Positions 36,279-48,346 of a stretch of 64,000 nucleotides of DNA are shown here, piece by piece. Origin of the DNA: Syntrophomonas sp. DTU019. Lineage in GTDB: Bacteria; Bacillota; Syntrophomonadia; Syntrophomonadales; Syntrophomonadaceae. The notes under the pieces were generated by a model that made no database searches, had not been told where the DNA came from, and saw only the letters and a program-made list of their open reading frames with translations. The stretch is from assembly GCA_913757435.1 (NCBI GenBank), contig CAJYDM010000001.1, positions 62,001-126,000 of the forward strand. The letters run 5' to 3'. The first letter of the stretch is position 1. Every line of letters begins with the position of its first letter. The translations under genes and the position numbers were made by a program.

Positions 36279-36758
36279 TTAAGATTCTTTGCCACCGTAG
36301 AAACGATGGTAGGCTACCAACGCTTCCATATAGCGGGCAAAATCTATGAATTTTTTCCGGCTGTCGCCAATGTCACTCAGTAGTTCCAGTAATCCTGCCT
36401 TTTTCACAAAGGGCTTGACCACCTTCGGCTCACGGCCGCATTCGTAAGCCAACCGCACTTTTAGGTATTCTATTCTGCTTTGTATCTGTTCATCTAAAAC
36501 ATCTTCCGGTTCGGCCCGGACATCGTTGTAGATCTCACTGACCATGGACAGGATATTCCTTATCTTGCTGGTGGTGAAGTTCTGGAAATCACGCCCCATC
36601 TGGTTCTTTAAATCCTTTATGACCTGTTCCGCTTGGTCAGCGTAGTTTTTCTGCAGCACAAACTTATCAACAGCCTGTGCCGCTGTGTTCTGGGTTTGTT
36701 GCTTTGTAGAAGACTTGAACCCTGCTTTCTCGAAAGCGCTTTTAATATCGTTAGGCAT
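36279..36758 (-). CDS. csm2: Type III-A small subunit Csm2
   Basis: 159 aa helical protein that lines the Csm filament beside the target RNA. Recognised by size, by the position between cas10 and csm3, and by FTTSKIRNILSMVSEIYND and RLAYECGREPKVVKPF. The first 40 residues are Gln/Thr/Lys rich and may be disordered. Its ATG overlaps cas10 by eight bases and has AGGAGGT upstream. Confidence 0.92.
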   Translation of the reverse strand: MPNDIKSAFEKAGFKSSTKQQTQNTAAQAVDKFVLQKNYADQAEQVIKDLKNQMGRDFQNFTTSKIRNILSMVSEIYNDVRAEPEDVLDEQIQSRIEYLKVRLAYECGREPKVVKPFVKKAGLLELLSDIGDSRKKFIDFARYMEALVAYHRFYGGKES

Positions 36759-39225
36759 GTCGGTTTACCTCCTTTTCGCGATTGTAATATGAATACAATA
36801 TGATGGCGGTTATTAATTGTCTCCGGTCTTCTTCTAATAAAGCCCAGTTGTAAATGCTCTGAGTGAAGGCGGCATATTTTTGCTTCACCTCAGGTTTGGC
36901 ATTCTTGTCCGGTTCATGCCGGGCTAACAGATAGGCCAGCCGTGCAATGTTGATTCCGGATTGGTGTGATTGGCGCAGCAGCTCCAGGATGTTATACAGG
37001 AAACTGTTGCCATAGGCATCACTTCCGCTGAACAAGTAATCTATCAGGGCATACTTTTCACCCATAACCCGGTTTTCAAATGTATCCCAATCATAGGTAT
37101 GATAGGCCTTTAACTGCAGTTCAGCCTTGTCCCTCTGGAACTCTATATCAAAGTCAGGGTGGGGCTGCTTTGGCATCCATTCCATACCCAGCAGCGAAAT
37201 GGAATTTTTGACCCCGCCGGCATACTGATTGGCTTTGGCCTGGGCTTCTAGTTGGGCGGTTTCAGCCGCCATCCGGGCAATGGGGTAACCGGGCTCGAAT
37301 ATGGCCATACCGGCTGACAGGGTCAGGGAATTTCCGGTATATCGCGCAAAGGCTCGGCGGATATCAATAGCTGCGGAGAGGACTTGGTTCCAAGCCCCGA
37401 CCAGGAAAAGGTCATCCCCGCCGGAGTAAACCACCACAATGTGGCGTTTCCCTGGTGAGGCTAACCGGCCAGGCTCACCAGGGGCCAGGATGCCATTAAG
37501 ATAGTATTTGTAAAATATGGATAAACTGCGTGAAAGTGTGGCAGTACGGGACAAGGTCAGGTAACGGTATTTATTTTCAGCCTCATTTTCCCTGATGAAG
37601 CCGCTGACAAAAGCAGTACCCAGGTCGTCGACATCAGCACGGAGCACCCCAATCCTCTCTATACCGTGTGAGGCATCAGCCAGTTCTTCAAAGGTCTGCA
37701 AATCACCCTCTGGACTTGTAGTGGCATAATCCCCCAGCCATATCTTGGCAGCCAAAGAGAAACCGGTGTGAAAAGTGTTTTTGCTGTATATGCGCACTAC
37801 CCTTTCCGGGCTCCCCTTCAACATCTGTTTGACTTCATCAGCCGTGCGAGCATAGAAGAAGTGCTTTTCCCCCTGCCCGGAGAAAAGCGGCAAAGCTACC
37901 CCGCCCAGTTCCTGATTGGCGACCACAAACACCGCATCGGGTTTAATAAGCATGCGGGATATATCCTCAAAGGCTGCGCAGGCCTGGCAGATAACACCCC
38001 CATTCCGTTCCACCAGTTGGCTGGATACACCACAGACCCGGCATTCACGCCCTGCTTTGTCCGGGAAATTGTGGTTTAATTCCATGATTTCACTAGCGGT
38101 ATAACGGCGTAATTTGCCTGCCGAGATTTGCGAAGATACACTGCGGAAAATGTTCAGATAATCTTCCGGGTCTCCAGTCTTGCTCATAAGTTCATTGGCG
38201 GAGCATTCCTGCATTCCATAAGCAACAAACAGCCTGGTTCCATAGAGCTTGAGCAAATTTTTGTTCAGGTTTCTTATTACTGCTGCTGCCCTTTCCCGGG
38301 CTTCAACAGTGTTTGGCAGCAGTATGTAGGCATGACCGCCGCCAGTATAGATAAGATTGGTGCGGTAAAGGGTGCAGCTCGATAGAATCTCGTCTGCCAG
38401 GTTTTCTAACAGCAATTCCAGATAGAATGACCTTGACCGAAGTCCCTTTAAGGCGCCCTTGGATGAAATGGTGTAGATGAAGGGCTGCACCCCGGAAATA
38501 TCGCAAGAGAACAGGCAAAAGGCCTTCTCCTGATAAAAGCCGTGACGCTTTTCAAAAAGTTCAAGACGATAATCATCTCGACCCAGACTGGTCATATATA
38601 ACACTATACATGCCGCCAGGGCGGCTGTAATTTTGGAGTGGTCAAAAAGCGAAATATCAGATACCTCTCCTAAATTGGTGGAAGAAGGCACATAGGACAA
38701 GTAAGCTTCTGTTAATTCCAGCAAAGAATTAACATATTCCCCTTTGTATTCAACAGCTCTCAGTCCCTCTGCCAAACCGAAAATTATCTTATTGTAATAT
38801 GAAGCTAAATCGTGTTTTTCGAAATCTGAAGGGTAGTTTATCTTCTCATCAAGAGTGGTCAAAGCATGGACAGCTTTTGCGTTGGAATCGTTCAAGAGGT
38901 TGTATATTGACTCCAGAGGTCTGTTCTTATCAAATCCCCCGAGAGCCTCTCCTTCTATATCCCTGCGGTCAACGCCTGAAGCGATGTTGTCGGCCAAATA
39001 TACAATGTATGCCAGGCTACCTTTTTCAATTTGGGCCTTTTCAATGTCCTGGTGATGATGATAGCGGATGCTGTTCAGAATGGCCGGATTATCAATATAC
39101 TCCTTCACCCAGTCATGGCCGGATATGCTGTGGGCGCGGCCATCCACATTTGCTCCCCTATGCAGGACTTTGCCAATATCATGCAAAAGGCCGGCCATCG
39201 TTACACTTTTGACTTTTTCATACAA
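36751..39225 (-). CDS. cas10: Type III-A large subunit Cas10/Csm1
   Basis: 824 aa; TTG start after GGGGGGAG. N-terminal HD nuclease: His15-Asp16 in AGLLHDIGKVLHRG, and GHDW downstream. The first palm domain is followed by a zinc finger (C395-x2-C398, C413-x2-C416). The second palm domain has DVDDLGTAF and the GGDD motif at residues 602-605 (VVYSGGDDLFLVG). Intact HD and GGDD imply target-RNA-activated DNase and cyclic oligoadenylate synthesis, the signal for the CARF-HEPN protein at 27423. It starts the csm operon. Confidence 0.97.
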   Translation of the reverse strand: MYEKVKSVTMAGLLHDIGKVLHRGANVDGRAHSISGHDWVKEYIDNPAILNSIRYHHHQDIEKAQIEKGSLAYIVYLADNIASGVDRRDIEGEALGGFDKNRPLESIYNLLNDSNAKAVHALTTLDEKINYPSDFEKHDLASYYNKIIFGLAEGLRAVEYKGEYVNSLLELTEAYLSYVPSSTNLGEVSDISLFDHSKITAALAACIVLYMTSLGRDDYRLELFEKRHGFYQEKAFCLFSCDISGVQPFIYTISSKGALKGLRSRSFYLELLLENLADEILSSCTLYRTNLIYTGGGHAYILLPNTVEARERAAAVIRNLNKNLLKLYGTRLFVAYGMQECSANELMSKTGDPEDYLNIFRSVSSQISAGKLRRYTASEIMELNHNFPDKAGRECRVCGVSSQLVERNGGVICQACAAFEDISRMLIKPDAVFVVANQELGGVALPLFSGQGEKHFFYARTADEVKQMLKGSPERVVRIYSKNTFHTGFSLAAKIWLGDYATTSPEGDLQTFEELADASHGIERIGVLRADVDDLGTAFVSGFIRENEAENKYRYLTLSRTATLSRSLSIFYKYYLNGILAPGEPGRLASPGKRHIVVVYSGGDDLFLVGAWNQVLSAAIDIRRAFARYTGNSLTLSAGMAIFEPGYPIARMAAETAQLEAQAKANQYAGGVKNSISLLGMEWMPKQPHPDFDIEFQRDKAELQLKAYHTYDWDTFENRVMGEKYALIDYLFSGSDAYGNSFLYNILELLRQSHQSGINIARLAYLLARHEPDKNAKPEVKQKYAAFTQSIYNWALLEEDRRQLITAIILYSYYNREKEVNRHA

Positions 39226-40883: not shown

Positions 40884-40892
40884 TGGTATAAT
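40884..40892 (+). promoter_or_regulatory. Extended -10 promoter of the radical SAM/Lgt-like operon
   Basis: TG-G-TATAAT at 40884-40892, no good -35. It lies inside the frame that is open before 40920, so it supports the TTG start at 40920. Confidence 0.6.
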
Positions 40893-40919: not shown

Positions 40920-42320
40920 TTGAAGTCAGAGCACCCATCTTCCCCATCATTAAGGGATTATACTTTTTTCGAAAGCACCACCAGCATCTGCCCGCAATGT
41001 ATGAACACCGTTGCCGCCAAGGTGGTTGTTCGTAACGGGCAGGTGTTTCTCCTGAAATACTGTGCTCATCATGGCGAGCAATGGGAGTTGCTGGAGGAGA
41101 GCGCTGAATATCATCTGCGCAAGAGGCTCTACGATAAGCCAGGTACTAAAATGAAGGTTCACACCACAGTCAGCCGGGGCTGCCCTTTCGACTGCGGAAT
41201 CTGCCCGCAGCACGATCAGCACGCCTGCATCGGCTTAATAGAGATTACCAATAGCTGTGACCTGCGCTGCCCGTTATGTTATGCCGGGGCTGGCGAGGGT
41301 GAACATTTGACCTTGACTACCATCGAGCGGATGATGGATTTCTTTTTGGATTCTGAGGGCGGCCAGGCCGAAATCCTGCAGATCAGCGGGGGTGAGCCCA
41401 CCCTGCACCCGCAGATTATTGATATTATCCGTCTGGCTAAATCCAAACCATTTAAATACGTGATGCTCAATACCAATGGTCTGCGCCTGGCAGAGGATAA
41501 GGCTTTCGTGGAGGCGTTGCAGGAATTCAGGGGCGGCTTCGAGGTTTATCTGCAATTCGACGGCTTTAAAGAACAGACTTATCTCCAACTAAGGGGGCGT
41601 AATCTGCTGGAATGTAAGCGGCAAGCTCTGGAAAATCTGGCTTTTGCCAAGATACCCTCAACCCTGGTCTCAACCGTCAGTGGAGGGATAAATGAGGAGG
41701 AAGTCGGCAAGATATTCTTGTTTGGCCTTAAGCAGCCGTATGTGCGGGGGATTAATTTTCAGCCGGAGGGTTTTTTCGGACGCATCCCGGATATAGGCAA
41801 GAGGAAGCGGGTGACCCTCTCCGGGGTCTTGCAGCGACTGGAACAGCAGAGCAGCGGCATGTTGAAAATTAGTGATTTCATCCCCCTGCCCTGCAACGTA
41901 GAGCGCGTAGCCATCACCTTCCTGTACCGTTCCCAGCAGGGCGGCTTTCTTCCCATCACCCGCGATGCCCGCATCCAGGACTATCTGCACCTGATCGACA
42001 ACACCTTCGCCTTCACCATTGAAGACGCGCTTAAGAATGCCGGCCGGAGTATTACGGATATCAAAGCCAGCCTGGATTGCTGCAAATTCATCAGCGATTT
42101 TCGTCACATCATACCTTTCAATTTTTTCGCCAAATCCAAACAGAGAAAGATGGAATACATTGATGAAAATACCTTTCGTTTAAGTGTGACCTCTTTTATC
42201 GACAGATACGATTTTGATATAAAATCAATGCAGAAAGAATGCGTCCATGTGATCACCCCGGATTTACGCAAAATACCTTTTTCTGCCTATAATATGATAC
42301 ATAGGGGTGACAAAACATGA
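40920..42320 (+). CDS. Tetraether-synthase-like (Tes/MJ0619 family) radical SAM protein
   Basis: 466 aa from TTG 40920, preceded by CGAGGT and the promoter at 40884. Three cysteine groups: a rubredoxin-like ICPQC...KYCAHHG (residues about 24-55), a second GCPFDCGICPQH, and the radical SAM site C-x3-C-x2-C in NSCDLRCPLCYAGAGEGE. LQISGGEPTLHP holds the SAM-binding GGE. This order is that of the archaeal enzyme that joins two lipid tails (Tes/GDGT-MAS) and of related proteins once named pterin methyltransferases. It is the first gene of a five-gene operon of membrane proteins, so lipid modification is likely. Substrate is inferred. Confidence 0.85.
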   Translation: MKSEHPSSPSLRDYTFFESTTSICPQCMNTVAAKVVVRNGQVFLLKYCAHHGEQWELLEESAEYHLRKRLYDKPGTKMKVHTTVSRGCPFDCGICPQHDQHACIGLIEITNSCDLRCPLCYAGAGEGEHLTLTTIERMMDFFLDSEGGQAEILQISGGEPTLHPQIIDIIRLAKSKPFKYVMLNTNGLRLAEDKAFVEALQEFRGGFEVYLQFDGFKEQTYLQLRGRNLLECKRQALENLAFAKIPSTLVSTVSGGINEEEVGKIFLFGLKQPYVRGINFQPEGFFGRIPDIGKRKRVTLSGVLQRLEQQSSGMLKISDFIPLPCNVERVAITFLYRSQQGGFLPITRDARIQDYLHLIDNTFAFTIEDALKNAGRSITDIKASLDCCKFISDFRHIIPFNFFAKSKQRKMEYIDENTFRLSVTSFIDRYDFDIKSMQKECVHVITPDLRKIPFSAYNMIHRGDKT

Positions 42321-42955
42321 GGGGGTTTCCGCCGGAATTTTCTCTGGAGCTAGTCATATCCCTGGTGATTTGTTTATGTGTGGTGTTGATATTTACAGCG
42401 GTGATTGTTGATTTTGCGCTTTTCTCCAGGCGTGAAAGAGTGCGCCGGGAAAAGCGCTCCTTAGTGGACACAGCCACTATGACGCTTTTTTTCCTCTTTT
42501 TCTATGCCATCCTGCAGAGCGGGAAGGGTTACCTCCCGACAGCACCCGGCTGGGGCAAAATGGCCTTCATGATTATAGGAACCTTGCTGGTAGTTGTCGG
42601 CTGTCTGGTCAATCTGGCCGGGCGGCGTAACCTGGGGGGCAACTGGGCCAATCATATCAAGATCTACGAAGATCACTGCCTGGTGACCAGCGGGATGTAT
42701 AAACTGGTCAGGCACCCCTTGTACGCTTCTATTATAATGATGTTTTACGGCGCCTCTGTGGCTTATGTCAATGTTCTAGCTCTGGCTGCGGTGACGCTCA
42801 TATTCGTTCCCTTTATGATTTACCGGGCCCGGCAGGAGGAGGCCCTGCTGCGCGAACAATTCCCGGATTACCGACAATACCAGTTACGGACCGGTATGTT
42901 TTTTCCTAAATTCGGAAAAAGGAGGATAAATCATGAAAGAATACCACCCGGTTGA
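42317..42955 (+). CDS. ICMT/PEMT-type integral membrane methyltransferase
   Basis: 212 aa with about five hydrophobic segments. GGNWANHIKIYEDHCLVTSG, then MYKLVRHPLYASIIMMFYG, and the C-terminal RARQEEALLREQFPDYRQY are the conserved SAM-binding and active-site region of isoprenylcysteine carboxyl methyltransferase and phospholipid methyltransferase relatives. Bacterial members methylate lipids or other membrane substrates. Overlaps the radical SAM gene by four bases (ATGA) and the next gene by 23. Confidence 0.9.
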   Translation: MRGFPPEFSLELVISLVICLCVVLIFTAVIVDFALFSRRERVRREKRSLVDTATMTLFFLFFYAILQSGKGYLPTAPGWGKMAFMIIGTLLVVVGCLVNLAGRRNLGGNWANHIKIYEDHCLVTSGMYKLVRHPLYASIIMMFYGASVAYVNVLALAAVTLIFVPFMIYRARQEEALLREQFPDYRQYQLRTGMFFPKFGKRRINHERIPPG

Positions 42956-43430
42956 GGTCCCCTCGGCTGCGTTTGCCTTCTGTAAATACAGCCTGGCTTT
43001 GCTGCTGTGGGCGGCCTGGATCCTGCACATCAAAGAACTGGTGGGTGTGGTTTTGCTGATCTTGCTTCTATCGGCCTGGTTGGGAGTAGAGCGAGCCCCT
43101 CTGGTTCTGCTGTACAGCCATACTATCAACCGCCTCCTACCTTCAAAACTGGAGCTGTTAGATGGAAACGCGGTGCGCTTCGCACATCTGGCTGGTTCAT
43201 TCCTAAATGCGACTGCTCTGATATCTCTCTATTTTATCAATCCACAGGTGGGATGGGCTATAACCGGGCTGACCGCCATTCTAAAAACCTCAGGGGCGCT
43301 GGGATTCTGCGGAGGAATAAAACTGTATGAATGTCTGAACAGCCCCAACGGGAAATGTTGCCGCTTTGGCAGGCAATTGAAAAACCTGCAGTGTGACCCG
43401 CGGTCCGGCAAAGGGGGCAATACACTATAG
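42933..43430 (+). CDS. DUF4395 integral membrane protein
   Basis: 165 aa with three to four hydrophobic helices. The start MKEYHPVEVPSAAFAFCKYSL, AHLAGSFLNATALISLYF, and GAAF-like glycine stretch with the C-terminal GFCGGIKLYECLN match DUF4395, which often holds a C-x-G-C-type cysteine pattern near the end. A strong AAAAGGAGG lies before the ATG. Part of the operon; 23 bases before the Lgt-like gene. Role unknown. Confidence 0.8.
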   Translation: MKEYHPVEVPSAAFAFCKYSLALLLWAAWILHIKELVGVVLLILLLSAWLGVERAPLVLLYSHTINRLLPSKLELLDGNAVRFAHLAGSFLNATALISLYFINPQVGWAITGLTAILKTSGALGFCGGIKLYECLNSPNGKCCRFGRQLKNLQCDPRSGKGGNTL

Positions 43431-43453
43431 GCAGCGATTGGGGAATTAGGCCG

Positions 43454-44194
43454 GTGTTGTTCCAAATCAACGGTTTCCCGGTTGATACTTACCCAGTTAT
43501 GATAATGGTGGCACTTTTAACCGGGATACTGCTCTACCGGCATCAGCTCCGGCAAGACCGGATACAGGGCTGGGAAGCGTTTTATATCGCAGTATTGGCC
43601 TTATCAGGAGGCATACTGGGAGCAAAACTGCCTATAATCATCATGCACTGGCAGGAGCTCAACTCTGCTCCTCTGTCCTGGGCCACGATCTTGTCAGGAC
43701 GCACCATAGTTGGAGGACTACTAGGCGGTTTTGCAGCCACCTGGGGCGGCAAGAAACTATTAGGCATTGAGGGGCGTCTGGGCAATCAAATTGCCATTCC
43801 TGTGGCGGTCGGCATGGCAGTGGGCAGAATCGGCTGTTTTCTGCGGGGCTGCTGTTATGGAGAGGCCACCACACTACCCTGGGGAGTGGATTTCGGAGAT
43901 CATATAAGGCGGCATCCTACTCAGGTCTATGAGATAGTTTTCGATATCATCCTGGCTGGTTTCTTAATTTGGAAGAAACGGTACGGGGTGGTACAGACGG
44001 GTGAATTGTTCAGGATCTTCCTAAACAGCTACCTGAGCTTTCGTTTTATGCTGGAGTTTATCCGGGTAGAACCGCTGGGCGCACTGGGTCTGACCGCTTT
44101 TCAATGGCTGTGCCTGGTGTCCTTGCTGTATATGAATCGAAGTTTTATCTGGCAGCTTATTAATTGGAGGAGGAGCAAATCATATGAACTATGA
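43454..44194 (+). CDS. Lgt-family (prolipoprotein diacylglyceryl transferase-like) protein, altered active site
   Basis: 246 aa, about seven membrane helices. It keeps the family layout: INGFPVDTYPVMIMVALL (N-terminus), GGLLGGFAATWGGKKL, GRIGCFLRGCCYGE, and RFMLEFIRVEP. In true Lgt the third region is GRxGNFxNxE; here Asn and Glu are replaced by Cys residues, and the His before GGL is Val. So the usual transfer of diacylglycerol to a lipobox Cys is doubtful. The start is GTG 43454 (a TTG follows at 43457) with a weak ribosome site. It overlaps the next gene by 11 bases. Confidence 0.85.
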   Translation: MLFQINGFPVDTYPVMIMVALLTGILLYRHQLRQDRIQGWEAFYIAVLALSGGILGAKLPIIIMHWQELNSAPLSWATILSGRTIVGGLLGGFAATWGGKKLLGIEGRLGNQIAIPVAVGMAVGRIGCFLRGCCYGEATTLPWGVDFGDHIRRHPTQVYEIVFDIILAGFLIWKKRYGVVQTGELFRIFLNSYLSFRFMLEFIRVEPLGALGLTAFQWLCLVSLLYMNRSFIWQLINWRRSKSYEL

Positions 44195-44633
44195 GAACAA
44201 CCCCGGAGATGATGATAAGCTTAAAGGCGCCCGTAATGGGACGCCTCCGGATGCCGATCAGAGCAACCCGGAAGAGCCTGGCCCCAACTCGGAAGGGACA
44301 GAGATTCCAAATTCGAACGGGACAGAGACTGGAGATTATTCCTCTGCAGACGCACCACCCCGACGCAAGACTGCTGTGGAGGTAGCGTCCGGCCTGGGTA
44401 TAGCTGCGCTGGTATACGCCCTCTTGTGGGCGGCTTTCGCTTCACAGGTGGGCATCATCATTGTTGTGCTCAGCCTGGCCCTCTTGGGAGGAGGCGTGGT
44501 ATGGAGCGTTAAGCTGATGAGGAGCGGCCGCACCGCCATGGGGGTGACCATGCTGGCGGCTTTTGCCCTCCCGCTCTTGGCCCTTTTGACCGTAGGCGCC
44601 TGCGTCTTGCTGTTTATACCTTTTTCGGGCTAG
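44184..44633 (+). CDS. Small membrane protein with disordered N-terminus
   Basis: 149 aa. The first 65 residues are Pro/Asp/Glu/Asn/Thr-rich and presumably disordered. Two membrane helices follow (ASGLGIAALVYALLWAAF, then two hydrophobic stretches to the C-terminus). No family recognised. ATG overlaps the Lgt-like gene by 11 bases and GGAGGAGG lies upstream. Last gene of the operon; it faces the adenine deaminase gene. Confidence 0.7.
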   Translation: MNYENNPGDDDKLKGARNGTPPDADQSNPEEPGPNSEGTEIPNSNGTETGDYSSADAPPRRKTAVEVASGLGIAALVYALLWAAFASQVGIIIVVLSLALLGGGVVWSVKLMRSGRTAMGVTMLAAFALPLLALLTVGACVLLFIPFSG

Positions 44634-44641
44634 GATATACT

Positions 44642-46453
44642 CTACCATGACCTACTGCTTATGAACTGAGAGCCGCGTAATACCTGATGGGTCTTGACTT
44701 CGGTGATACCGTCCCTGGTAAGCCGTATGCTGGGCAGATGAGTCGATGACAGAAATCTCAGGGTATAGAAAGGTTCATGGTGGGGATAGCCAGCTGCTAC
44801 CAACACCCGTTCTATCTGCTCACTGGCCTCGATAACATGGGGCATAGAGCCGGGGTTCATGCTGCCTCCCAGAGGCAAGGCGAGTTCTGCAGCAATATTC
44901 CCCTTCTGGACGACTACTATGCCTCCGCCCAGCTCATGTATGCGCCGCAACGCTAACCGCATAGCGTCGGTATCCTGCCCCACAACTACCAGATCTGATG
45001 ATGCGGTATTGGAAGCGGCGATACCATCCAGTTCCCTGGCAAATCTAAAGATGATACCATGAGTGACTGACCGATAATCGCGGCTGATCAAGGTTGCGTA
45101 ACAGAGACCCTGACCTTTTTCAACGTGCAATTTTCCGTTTGCGGGTCTGATCTCCTGGCCCAGCTTATAATTGCGCTGCCTGGTGATAACCGGGTCAATC
45201 AACTCCATTACCGGGAAAATGGCTTCCCCGCTGAACAAAGGCTGCAACGGCACGTCCTCCATACACACCGAAGGTTTTGACAAGGGTTTAACCCCCAGTC
45301 CATTCCAGTCCAGATGCACCAGGGGGTATTGCCTGTCTACATTCAAGCCTTTCCTTTCCACCACCAGTTTGCCATCTGCCCAGACCATTGTCGGAGTCGG
45401 CTCATTCAGGCTGTTTAACACCAGTATATCTGCAATCCGTCCGGGAGCTAAACCGCCGATTTCATTATCCAGCCCCAGGTAAACCGCAGGGTTTCTGGTC
45501 ACCAGTTGATAGGCAGTGATGGGATTAACCCCCTGCTCCAGGGCAATCTTGATCAAGCGGTCAGTGAAGCCATGCTTCAAAAAGGAAGGCTTGGGAGCAT
45601 CAGTAGTCATCATTATTCTTTCCCAGGCCAGATGCTTGTGTTTCAGCAGTCCTTTCAATAAGTCAACCAGGTCCGGACGAAGCGACGAATTGCGCAAGGT
45701 GGCGTACATCCCCATACGCAAACGCAAGAGGACATCATCTGCATTGATCGATTCGTGGCAAGCCGTCACCCCCGCTGCTGCCAGGGGATTAAGGGTTCTG
45801 AGCGAGGCCCCGGGAGCGTGACCTTCGGCTCTTTTCCCCAAAGATAAGGCCTCCAAGAGCCATTCTTGCATGTTCTTATGGCCTGTGATCAAGGATGGCC
45901 AGTCTGTAAGTTCCCCTACCTGCACAAATCCTCCATGCCTAATCAACTGGCTCACTGCTTCCCTGGTAAAGCGCGCTGAATGCTCGGGGCTGAAAGTCTG
46001 CGGATCCAAACGGGCGCTCCACAACATTTTATGGGGATGATGCTCAAGGATGTTCTCCACCATGGATATAATCTTATCGGGGGACATAAGGTTCATGAAC
46101 AGGAGGTCGTCATTGACTGAACAGGTGGTCCCCCGGCTCAACACCTCATCAGCAAAGGCCAGCGGATGGTGCATGGTGAAGGGATGGGCGTGTGGTTCTA
46201 TGTAGCCCGGCACCAGTACCCGGCCTTCAAGGTCGATCACTGTGGTGGATGCTCCCTGCATCGCGTCGGATGGGCCAATATATGCGATCCTCTGCCCTTT
46301 TATAGCCAGATTGGCTTCCAGCAGCTCACCGTTGTATACATCCAGGATGTATCCCCCGGTGAAATAATAGTCCGCCGGTTCCAGTCCTCTAGAGACCGCA
46401 ATGACGCTTCTCATTATATCGATATTCCAAGGTCTCAGTCTTCCTCTGGTCAT
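44642..46453 (-). CDS. ade: Adenine deaminase family amidohydrolase
   Basis: 603 aa. Hydrolyses adenine to hypoxanthine and ammonia in purine salvage, if it is true Ade. LVPGYIEPHAHPFT contains the HxH metal site, and MTTDAPKP carries a metal-binding Asp. The C-terminal IVVVQKGNIAAELALPLGG is typical of adenine deaminases. Start at 46453 after GGGGGGCAAAA; a second ATG lies 13 codons on. It faces the Lgt-like operon with only 8 bases between the stops. Confidence 0.88.
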   Translation of the reverse strand: MTRGRLRPWNIDIMRSVIAVSRGLEPADYYFTGGYILDVYNGELLEANLAIKGQRIAYIGPSDAMQGASTTVIDLEGRVLVPGYIEPHAHPFTMHHPLAFADEVLSRGTTCSVNDDLLFMNLMSPDKIISMVENILEHHPHKMLWSARLDPQTFSPEHSARFTREAVSQLIRHGGFVQVGELTDWPSLITGHKNMQEWLLEALSLGKRAEGHAPGASLRTLNPLAAAGVTACHESINADDVLLRLRMGMYATLRNSSLRPDLVDLLKGLLKHKHLAWERIMMTTDAPKPSFLKHGFTDRLIKIALEQGVNPITAYQLVTRNPAVYLGLDNEIGGLAPGRIADILVLNSLNEPTPTMVWADGKLVVERKGLNVDRQYPLVHLDWNGLGVKPLSKPSVCMEDVPLQPLFSGEAIFPVMELIDPVITRQRNYKLGQEIRPANGKLHVEKGQGLCYATLISRDYRSVTHGIIFRFARELDGIAASNTASSDLVVVGQDTDAMRLALRRIHELGGGIVVVQKGNIAAELALPLGGSMNPGSMPHVIEASEQIERVLVAAGYPHHEPFYTLRFLSSTHLPSIRLTRDGITEVKTHQVLRGSQFISSRSW

Positions 46454-46813
46454 TTAAGTTTTGCCCCCCCGGTCTTCGCAAAGAAAGCTGCGTCGTTTTA
46501 GGTATCAGCTTCAAACTATTGCTCATTTTACCATATTTGACCGCCATAGGACCGCTGACTGCTGGCGGCACGGGTAAAGGTGCACTGTTATACAGGAGGC
46601 AATGATTATGATGCTATAGATTCAGAGCGTTTGTAAAGTGCCCCGCGGATATCTGGGGCTGACTTTATAATTCATTTAAGATGTTAAAGATTTGGCTAAT
46701 TCGTTATGCGAAAACGGCCTGCAAGCAGGACGGCCTTGATTGATACGGTCTTGTCCATGCTGCAGGCCGATTAAGAGTGATCGGTGCGTATAGGATAGGG
46801 TTCTATTTACTGT
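46454..46813. other. Gap between adenine deaminase and FAD/Rieske genes
   Basis: No gene seen. A hairpin at 46711-46735 (CCTGC-TT-GCAGG inner stem) is followed by TTTT on the minus strand and may end the FAD/Rieske transcript. The left part should contain the promoter for the adenine deaminase gene. Confidence 0.4.
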
Positions 46814-48346
46814 TTATTCAAAGATACGGGCTTCGACCGCATTGGAACATTGTTCAGCAGCGTGCAAAATATTGAAAGCTGGTCCTTCTACAACCTCACC
46901 GGTGTAACTGAACCTGGAGCCATGGCATGGACAGTCCCAGGTCCTTTCGGCATCGTTCCAGTTAAGCTCGCAGCCCAAATGTGTGCAGGTAATATCAACA
47001 ATATGCAGCTCACCTTTATCATCGCGGAAAGCGCCATACTTTTCTCCGTTTATTTGAATAGCCTTGCCTTCCCCATTGGAAAGCTCAACACCTTCAGGGA
47101 GCCGGGCAATTTTCCCTGCCACCAGGTTCCTGGCCACATTAAGGTTCAGCCCCACAAAGGTTTTCACCGAGGTCAGGTTAAACCTGGAGGGATTGTAAAC
47201 CGGCGCCCAGGGACTATCCCCTCTGACTATCAAATCGTTTAAAACCATGGCAGATGCGGTTCCGTTGGAAATGCCCCACTTATCAAACCCGGTTGCAACG
47301 TATATATTGGCGCTTTTAGGGGTGAGATGGCCTACATAAGGAATGCCATCCAGGGTTTGATAATCCTGAGTCGACCAGCGGTAGAGCACATCTTTAACCT
47401 CAAAGTTTTCGTGCGCAAAATCTAAGAGGTTTTCATAATGGGTGTTAAGATTGGTTCCCTCCCCGGTAGGATGGCTTTCCCCGGCTATCAGGATCAGTTC
47501 CCCGTCTTCATATGGTTGGGAGCGAAGTGAACGGGAGGGGCTTTCCGCGCTGATAAACATTCCTTCCGGGAAGGCCTCCTGGGCCTTTATGGCGATTATA
47601 TAAGCGCGCTGCGGGTCCAGTTTGCTAAAGTACATACCCCCTCCATCGAAAAAGGGGAAGTGTGAAGCAATTATGATTTTATCTGCCGTGACCTTTTGGC
47701 CCTGGCGGGTGAGTACTGCCAGGGGATTCTCATCAATTCCCACTGCAGTGGTTTTTTCCAGAATGTAACTGCCCTGGTCTGGAATCTGTCGGGCCAGACT
47801 TTGCAGATATTTCAGAGGATGGAATTGGGCTTGATTATCAAACCTCAGCGCCGCCCGTACAGAAAAAGGCAAGGGGCTGTTGTCCATATAGCTGGCCTTA
47901 ATACCCAGACTGCAGGCCGCCTGGGCCTCGTCCTCCAGATCTTTTAAATACTGTTCAGATTGGGTGAATACATAAGCTGGACGCCAGGAAAAATCGCAAT
48001 CAATATTGTTTTCGGCAGCAGTGCTGGCAATCAAGTGAATGGCGCTCTCATTGGCATCGGCGTATTGCTGGGCCAGTTCCTGCCCCACCTGTTGTTTCAG
48101 CCTGGCGTATATCAAGTGATGCTGTGAGGTTATTTTGGCAGTAGTATGTCCGGTCGTTCCTTGCAGAATTCGATCCGCTTCAATGATTGCCACCTTTACG
48201 CCTTGTTTTTTCAACAGGTACGCAGCGGTAATGCCAACGATACCACCGCCGACTATGGCCACATCCACCTTTAGATCTTGTTGTATTTCCGGATAACCAG
48301 TGGACGGAGTAGAAGTCATCCAGAACGAGCTTGGTCTATCTTCCAT
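46814..48346 (-). CDS. FAD-dependent oxidoreductase with C-terminal Rieske [2Fe-2S] domain
   Basis: 510 aa. DAO/GlcD-type N-terminal part: VDVAIVGGGIVGITAAYLL (FAD GxGxxG) followed by the acid IIEADR. TTGHTTAKITSQHH and the substrate-domain patterns of glycine-oxidase-like enzymes follow. The C-terminal Rieske domain has C-x-H (CTHLGC) and C-x2-H (CPCHGSRF) ligands. This fusion occurs in anaerobes and Bacillales; electrons could pass from flavin to the cluster. AAGAGGTAA precedes the ATG. The physiological partner is unknown. Confidence 0.9.
   Translation of the reverse strand: MEDRPSSFWMTSTPSTGYPEIQQDLKVDVAIVGGGIVGITAAYLLKKQGVKVAIIEADRILQGTTGHTTAKITSQHHLIYARLKQQVGQELAQQYADANESAIHLIASTAAENNIDCDFSWRPAYVFTQSEQYLKDLEDEAQAACSLGIKASYMDNSPLPFSVRAALRFDNQAQFHPLKYLQSLARQIPDQGSYILEKTTAVGIDENPLAVLTRQGQKVTADKIIIASHFPFFDGGGMYFSKLDPQRAYIIAIKAQEAFPEGMFISAESPSRSLRSQPYEDGELILIAGESHPTGEGTNLNTHYENLLDFAHENFEVKDVLYRWSTQDYQTLDGIPYVGHLTPKSANIYVATGFDKWGISNGTASAMVLNDLIVRGDSPWAPVYNPSRFNLTSVKTFVGLNLNVARNLVAGKIARLPEGVELSNGEGKAIQINGEKYGAFRDDKGELHIVDITCTHLGCELNWNDAERTWDCPCHGSRFSYTGEVVEGPAFNILHAAEQCSNAVEARIFE

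Follow-up and report, generated by a model that had tools for sequence, protein, structure and literature searches.

The window analyzed here is a stretch of 64,000 nucleotides from Syntrophomonas sp. DTU019 (assembly GCA_913757435.1, contig CAJYDM010000001.1, positions 62,001 to 126,000 of the forward strand), and our subject is a five-gene operon within it, encoding a radical S-adenosylmethionine (SAM) protein related to Tes, the enzyme that joins lipid tails in archaeal tetraethers, followed by four membrane proteins (Table 1). The genes are all on the forward strand and tightly packed: three of the four junctions are overlaps (4, 23 and 11 bases) and the remaining one is a 23-base gap, as described in the initial annotation, which was made from the sequence alone. 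Its family assignments are borne out by Pfam (Radical_SAM and Zn_ribbon_HMPTM, ICMT/PEMT, DUF4395 and LGT for genes one to four, respectively); the fifth protein has no family match in Pfam or NCBIfam. The extended -10 promoter proposed at that time is readable upstream of the operon as the weak motif TGGTATAAT, but a consensus scan gave no more sites than in shuffled sequences and did not list this motif.

Table 1. Features of the five-gene operon and its upstream region (positions in the window).
Feature	Position	Strand	Basis or remark
Extended -10-like motif TGGTATAAT	40884..40892	+	Read directly, upstream of operon; weak
Tes-superfamily radical SAM protein, 466 aa, TTG start	40920..42320	+	Pfam, NCBIfam, phmmer, fold match
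Rubredoxin-type site C24/C27/C48/H51	40989..41072	+	Aligned to Tes C9/C12/C33/H36
N-terminal auxiliary [4Fe-4S] site C88/C92/C95/H98	41181..41213	+	Aligned to Tes C73/C77/C80 and histidine
Radical SAM motif C113-X3-C117-X2-C120	41256..41279	+	Pfam, alignment
C-terminal region of radical SAM protein, Tes C338/M439/C455/C470 replaced; C325, C387, C441 present (invariant in alignment A3)	41892..42284	+	Alignment
ICMT/PEMT-type membrane methyltransferase, 212 aa	42317..42955	+	PF04140, PF04191; 4a2n, 5v7p matches
DUF4395 membrane protein, 165 aa	42933..43430	+	Pfam
Lgt-family (PF01790) paralogue, 246 aa, GTG start	43454..44194	+	Pfam
Lgt signature region VGRIGCFLRGCCYG; Cys in place of E. coli N146 and E151, R143 retained	43820..43861	+	Alignment
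Small membrane protein, 149 aa; N-terminal part hydrophilic, followed by hydrophobic helices; end ...LLTVGAC-VLLFIPFSG	44184..44633	+	
Tail cysteine C140, conserved, G-x-C motif past last helix	44601..44603	+	Proposed modification site

The radical SAM protein contains the three cysteine groups noticed earlier in Tes order (CX2C...CX2H, CX3CX2CX2H and CX3CX2C), and both homology and fold place it in the Tes superfamily. In phmmer it matches the Tes structure 7TOL along its whole length (E 8e-70), and its AlphaFold model (pLDDT 81.6) has the Tes fold over the whole chain, with a TM-score of 0.83 to 7TOM/7TOL. The ligands of the rubredoxin-type site, the N-terminal auxiliary cluster and the SAM cluster are all kept in the alignment. 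What the initial annotation overlooked is an alteration at the fourth metal site of Tes, the C-terminal one. Tes has a C-terminal [4Fe-4S] cluster with a labile Met439, which adjoins the lipid tails and forms an S-C intermediate that enables the C-C coupling (PMC9433317). Being the C-terminal cysteines conserved across the aligned Tes sequences, C338, C455 and C470 are taken here to be the probable ligands of this cluster, referred to as [Fe4S4]C. In the window protein M439 corresponds to T424, C455 to E440 and C470 to S455, and C338 is replaced by valine or arginine by alignment. All four positions are replaced in the aligned members of the five-gene group (the contig of locus L034 ends before the last one), which keep C325 and C441 (window numbering) and in most cases C387, and the C-terminal metal site has possibly been remodelled.

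The five-gene order was found in 14 genomes, the window included, of Bacillota, Bacteroidota and Acidobacteriota. The orthologues revealed by a contig scan (50-73% identity) belong to Syntrophomonas, to four strains of Clostridium, to three further metagenome-assembled genomes (MAGs) of Firmicutes, to Mangrovibacterium marinum in the Bacteroidota and to one MAG of Acidobacteria. Genome surveys contributed four more genomes, of which three are in the Bacteroidota sample and one is in the Acidobacteriota sample. Wherever the contig is long enough the order is the same, while the flanking genes are unrelated. Conservation in 14 genomes rules out a chance arrangement, and the co-occurrence on which the initial annotation had made its proposal depend is thus found. 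The window genome has one DUF4395 gene and one radical SAM gene of the Tes-like family; the latter is absent from the three other sampled genomes of the genus (two of them less than 90% complete), so the operon looks accessory. A search of plasmids for DUF4395 gave no match. In Clostridium lacusfryxellense (L045:4953-6317) an in-frame TAA separates 'GCP' from 'DCG' in the radical SAM gene of an otherwise complete five-gene operon, and this copy looks inactivated.

A FastTree phylogeny of 124 radical SAM sequences places the 15 tips of the five-gene group (support 1.0) inside a clade of 53 tips, likewise supported at 1.0, whose members come from the samples of Bacillota, Bacteroidota and Acidobacteriota; outside this clade the order of the deep branches has little support (0.26 or less). 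C455 and C470 are absent from every member of the clade, and C338 is lost in most and kept in some. Met439 is replaced mainly in the five-gene branch and kept in many clade members of two-gene loci. Nearly every radical SAM gene of the clade is adjoined by an Lgt-like gene, the exceptions being L033 and L034 (truncated contigs), L150, L187 and L204. Outside the clade a single sampled radical SAM gene, L137, has an Lgt-like neighbour, and its product keeps the ligands. In a separate examination, plasmids of Mycobacterium avium and M. branderi, and Nonomuraea, were also seen to carry Lgt-like genes in the vicinity of radical SAM genes whose products keep the ligands. Since such ligand-keeping proteins outside the clade also have Lgt-like genes nearby, the Lgt partnership is wider than the ligand loss. 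The pair of radical SAM and Lgt-like genes, moreover, extends far beyond the five-gene operon, which the initial annotation did not notice: DUF4395 is absent from the two-gene versions of Bacteroidota and Acidobacteriota, and the methyltransferase and DUF4395 are, as far as sampled, confined to the five-gene branch.

The radical SAM and Lgt-like genes of the clade are often directly adjoined by genes for short proteins that have between two and four hydrophobic helices, the last of them preceded by a basic loop, and a cysteine near the C-terminus. Such a protein was counted when its cysteine lay at most 15 residues from the C-terminus and a basic loop and last helix were present, with no motif required around the cysteine; this count replaced an earlier one in which the cysteine was chosen by a [GAST]xC pattern. 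A small Cys-tail protein was present within 300 bases at 39 of the 52 clade loci and at five of the 72 other radical SAM loci (Fisher p approximately 1e-15, a value inflated because the sequences are related and do not form independent samples). Among the 13 clade loci without one, L046 and L047 do carry Cys-tail proteins that fell to the filter, and two others are truncated contigs. In L046:5431-7357 and L047:11203-12993 the small membrane proteins are arranged in tandem after the Lgt-like gene, several of them ending in ATCVASL or similar. Position -2 from the cysteine is glycine in 29 of the 45 proteins of the motif-free count, position -1 is often threonine or isoleucine, and the window protein has VGAC; the motif had partly guided the choice of a further set of 52, collected by hand, and counts at -2 from that set are biased. 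In the 52 loops of the latter set the segment before the last helix contains 162 K/R against 26 D/E. Because positive charge precedes the last helix, the positive-inside rule predicts that the tail cysteine faces outward. Outside the shared motif the small proteins differ greatly, and their genes often overlap the radical SAM stop codon. Several loci have two or more copies, in tandem and divergent, which fits the role of a substrate. The core module thus appears to consist of the radical SAM protein, the Lgt-like protein and the small Cys-tail protein; the fifth gene, initially set down as a small unknown membrane protein, does encode a membrane protein, but its conserved tail cysteine and its place in the core had been missed. 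On plasmids pS2b of M. avium and pJCM12687 of M. branderi (L213, L214) the order is Lgt-like gene, two small Cys-tail genes, radical SAM gene, and the two radical SAM proteins keep the C-terminal cluster ligands and lack the N-terminal auxiliary cluster motif. Plasmid pPP1 of Persicobacter psychrovividus (L083, 922250-939596) has the Lgt-like, radical SAM and small Cys-tail genes approximately 2 kb from a large gene resembling polyketide or polyunsaturated fatty acid synthases.

The window Lgt-like protein matches PF01790 with 123.7 bits (cut-off 24.9, E 1e-35) and the NCBIfam lgt equivalog TIGR00544 with 63.1 bits, below the cut-off of 118.9. Lgt modifies cysteines at the outer membrane face, and in the E. 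coli enzyme R143 and R239 are essential and H103, N146 and E151 required (PMC4728403, PMC8689077). Equivalents of the donor-lipid arginines R143 and R239 and of E243 are kept in the window protein and those of H103, N146 and E151 are replaced. The changed active-site residues pointed out in the initial annotation are therefore real, but a change of function does not follow: the other, presumably housekeeping, Lgt of the window genome (L097, G000:C1:166063-166785), with YGAF and GCFLRGCCYG in place, is also without H103, N146 and E151, and the other copy of genome G033 has the same replacements. For this reason the residue changes were dropped as proof of a new function. (Alignment row CAN_L098 is no canonical Lgt but the operon copy of genome G107.) At least one further PF01790 match is present in all nine whole genomes that were searched, in G107 a fragment only, and the tenth record is a plasmid; the operon Lgt-like protein is an extra copy. 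In the DUF4395 protein, C17, C126, C134, C142 and C143 are invariant (alignment A5); a fold search with it gave no match better than E 1.9, and in the literature searched the family is named in just two papers.

Taken together, the sequence evidence suggests that the operon is most likely a lipid-protein modification module, with modification of lipids favoured over the making of membrane-spanning lipids. More specifically, we tentatively propose, at somewhat less than an even chance, that the Lgt-like enzyme lipidates the tail cysteine and that the radical SAM protein alters a lipid chain without C-C coupling of the Tes type. The former would move a lipid, probably diacylglyceryl from phosphatidylglycerol, onto the cysteine at the outer face; the latter would take hydrogen from a lipid chain of the donor or of the attached lipid and alter that chain without joining two. 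Desaturation, return of hydrogen by a cysteine and sulfur addition are candidates for the chain chemistry. In the five-gene version the ICMT-type methyltransferase would add a methyl group, and the cysteine-containing DUF4395 protein may be an accessory. This proposal accounts for the Lgt-like and small genes together, as Lgt-type transfer targets an outward cysteine. Tes homology suggests a lipid chain as the target of the radical SAM protein, which is tied to the other two genetically. The fuller version, in which lipidation of a C-terminal-tail cysteine by an Lgt paralogue is combined with a Tes-derived enzyme that, lacking the coupling cluster, rewrites the lipid chain, and with a methyltransferase finishing the product in the five-gene version, would constitute an anaerobic parallel to C-terminal CaaX processing, and is rather doubtful as a whole.

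Several observations weigh against the lipidation proposal. At seven clade loci, each of them from the Acidobacteriota sample, an Lgt-like gene is present but no small Cys-tail protein was seen. The G-x-C found across the small proteins differs from the lipobox [LVI][ASTVI][GAS]C, and with H103, N146 and E151 replaced the Lgt-like protein might bind lipid without being an enzyme. The radical SAM protein is predicted to be cytoplasmic and the tail cysteine to lie outside, so that any substrate common to the two would have to traverse the membrane or span it. Furthermore, the Lgt-linked radical SAM proteins of actinomycetes and of genome G250 keep the cluster ligands, and ligand loss and Lgt partnership are thus not strictly coupled.

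It has been proposed, without proof, that bacterial Tes homologues are enzymes for branched glycerol dialkyl glycerol tetraethers (brGDGTs), and they are in use as candidate markers of brGDGT producers (PMC8941075, PMC11868695). Homology and fold would allow the radical SAM protein likewise to join two fatty-acyl tails into membrane-spanning lipids as a brGDGT-type synthase, its neighbours adjusting the head groups. We consider this unlikely: the presumed [Fe4S4]C ligands, changed throughout the clade, are kept in archaeal Tes and in other bacterial branches according to the alignment, and loss of these coupling ligands argues against tail-to-tail bonds. In addition, Tes traps its radical on the C-terminal cluster (PMC9433317), the family score lies below the Tes cut-off (NF045702, 299.6 bits against 450), and the Lgt-like and Cys-tail partners would be left unexplained. 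Of the lipid-modifying system initially suggested, modification of lipids or of lipid-anchored molecules hence remains the best reading, while membrane-spanning lipids made by Tes chemistry are unsupported, given the changed ligands.

The invariant DUF4395 cysteines, the tail cysteine and an Lgt-like protein without H103, N146 and E151 would also suit a membrane thiol or metal-cofactor system, in which DUF4395, the small protein and the GCCYG motif of the Lgt-like protein act together as a redox or metal relay that the radical SAM protein serves. However, no cytochrome, CcdA or thioredoxin partner was seen in the five-gene loci, the two-gene versions do without DUF4395, R143, R239 and E243 are kept, and GCCYG is shared with the other Lgt of the window genome, so such a relay seems improbable. 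Little credence is likewise given to a scheme resembling ribosomally synthesized and post-translationally modified peptides, in which the radical SAM protein itself modifies the small membrane protein, for example at or near the tail cysteine, and the Lgt-like protein is a scaffold or finishing enzyme. Divergent small proteins with one shared motif, tandem copies and overlap with the radical SAM stop codon are what it would predict, but Tes is the closest fold over the whole length, peptide maturases match the core only, and the tail cysteine is predicted on the face opposite to the soluble enzyme. A TrsS-type enzyme acting on a soluble substrate, with incidental membrane neighbours, would agree with the best NCBIfam score of the radical SAM protein (TrsS, NF045646, 348 bits). 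This is nevertheless highly improbable, since that score does not reach the cut-off of 490, other genes lie at TrsS loci, the tree separates the groups and the membrane neighbours recur in three phyla. Gene context and tree disfavoured pterin chemistry as well, and a defence system (Viperin/PADLOC) was rejected, the pVip match being partial and restricted to the radical-SAM core.

The lipidation proposal, if true, would mean that in this branch, across several phyla, membrane proteins are modified with lipids in a novel manner. It is also doubtful whether a large bacterial 'Tes homologue' branch that has other partners and is without the presumed coupling ligands should be counted as synthases of membrane-spanning lipids. 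No description of a module of Lgt, radical SAM and tail-cysteine proteins was found in a literature search that mostly did not extend to subscription papers.

Directly upstream of the operon, on the opposite strand, lies a type III CRISPR Cas10/Csm1 gene (36751-39225, -). Downstream (44642-48346, -) there is an adenine-deaminase-like amidohydrolase gene and then one for an FAD oxidoreductase with a Rieske domain. Elsewhere, loci L050, L051, L140, L212, L217 and L218 of Chloroflexi, Acidobacteriota and haloarchaeal plasmids have a Tes-like radical SAM gene followed by a class I methyltransferase gene; all three cysteine ligands are kept in the bacterial loci of this branch that were checked.

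Among known systems, the (seleno)protein TrsS, a listed selenoprotein family (PMC13188914) that forms a bacterial branch of its own within the Tes superfamily, shares the domain plan of the radical SAM protein and is its best-scoring family, though below the cut-off. TrsS-like loci, however, keep the [Fe4S4]C ligands and sit in molybdenum-hydroxylase/XdhC clusters, with genes that were assigned by visual reading of the sequences to xanthine-dehydrogenase/XdhC, CoA ligase, C-GCAxxG-C-C and NTP-transferase; the XdhC, CoA ligase and C-GCAxxG-C-C neighbourhood was not seen around the window gene. Tes (GDGT-MAS, MJ0619) is similar in full-length homology, fold and the three N-terminal and SAM metal-site motifs. 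It differs in that the window protein has, besides C338, M439, C455 and C470, also Tyr459 replaced, a segment of approximately 20 residues missing, and Lgt-like and small Cys-tail neighbours. The second protein resembles isoprenylcysteine carboxyl methyltransferase (ICMT) in PF04140/PF04191, a match to 4a2n (E 4e-13) and an RHPLY motif; its score with the NCBIfam equivalog NF040696 is 83.2 bits, below the cut-off of 160, and, unlike ICMT, it has no known prenylated substrate. Prolipoprotein diacylglyceryl transferase, Lgt, has in common with the window protein PF01790 and the three kept residues, but differs in the three replaced ones, in that the window protein is an extra copy beside a radical SAM gene, and in the C-terminal position of the proposed acceptor cysteine. 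Finally, the lipoprotein signal peptides that are the lipobox substrates of Lgt also have a basic segment, a hydrophobic helix, a small residue and a cysteine at the outer face, whereas in the small proteins the cysteine is C-terminal, followed by at most 15 residues and set mostly in G-x-C, not in [ASTVI][GAS]C.

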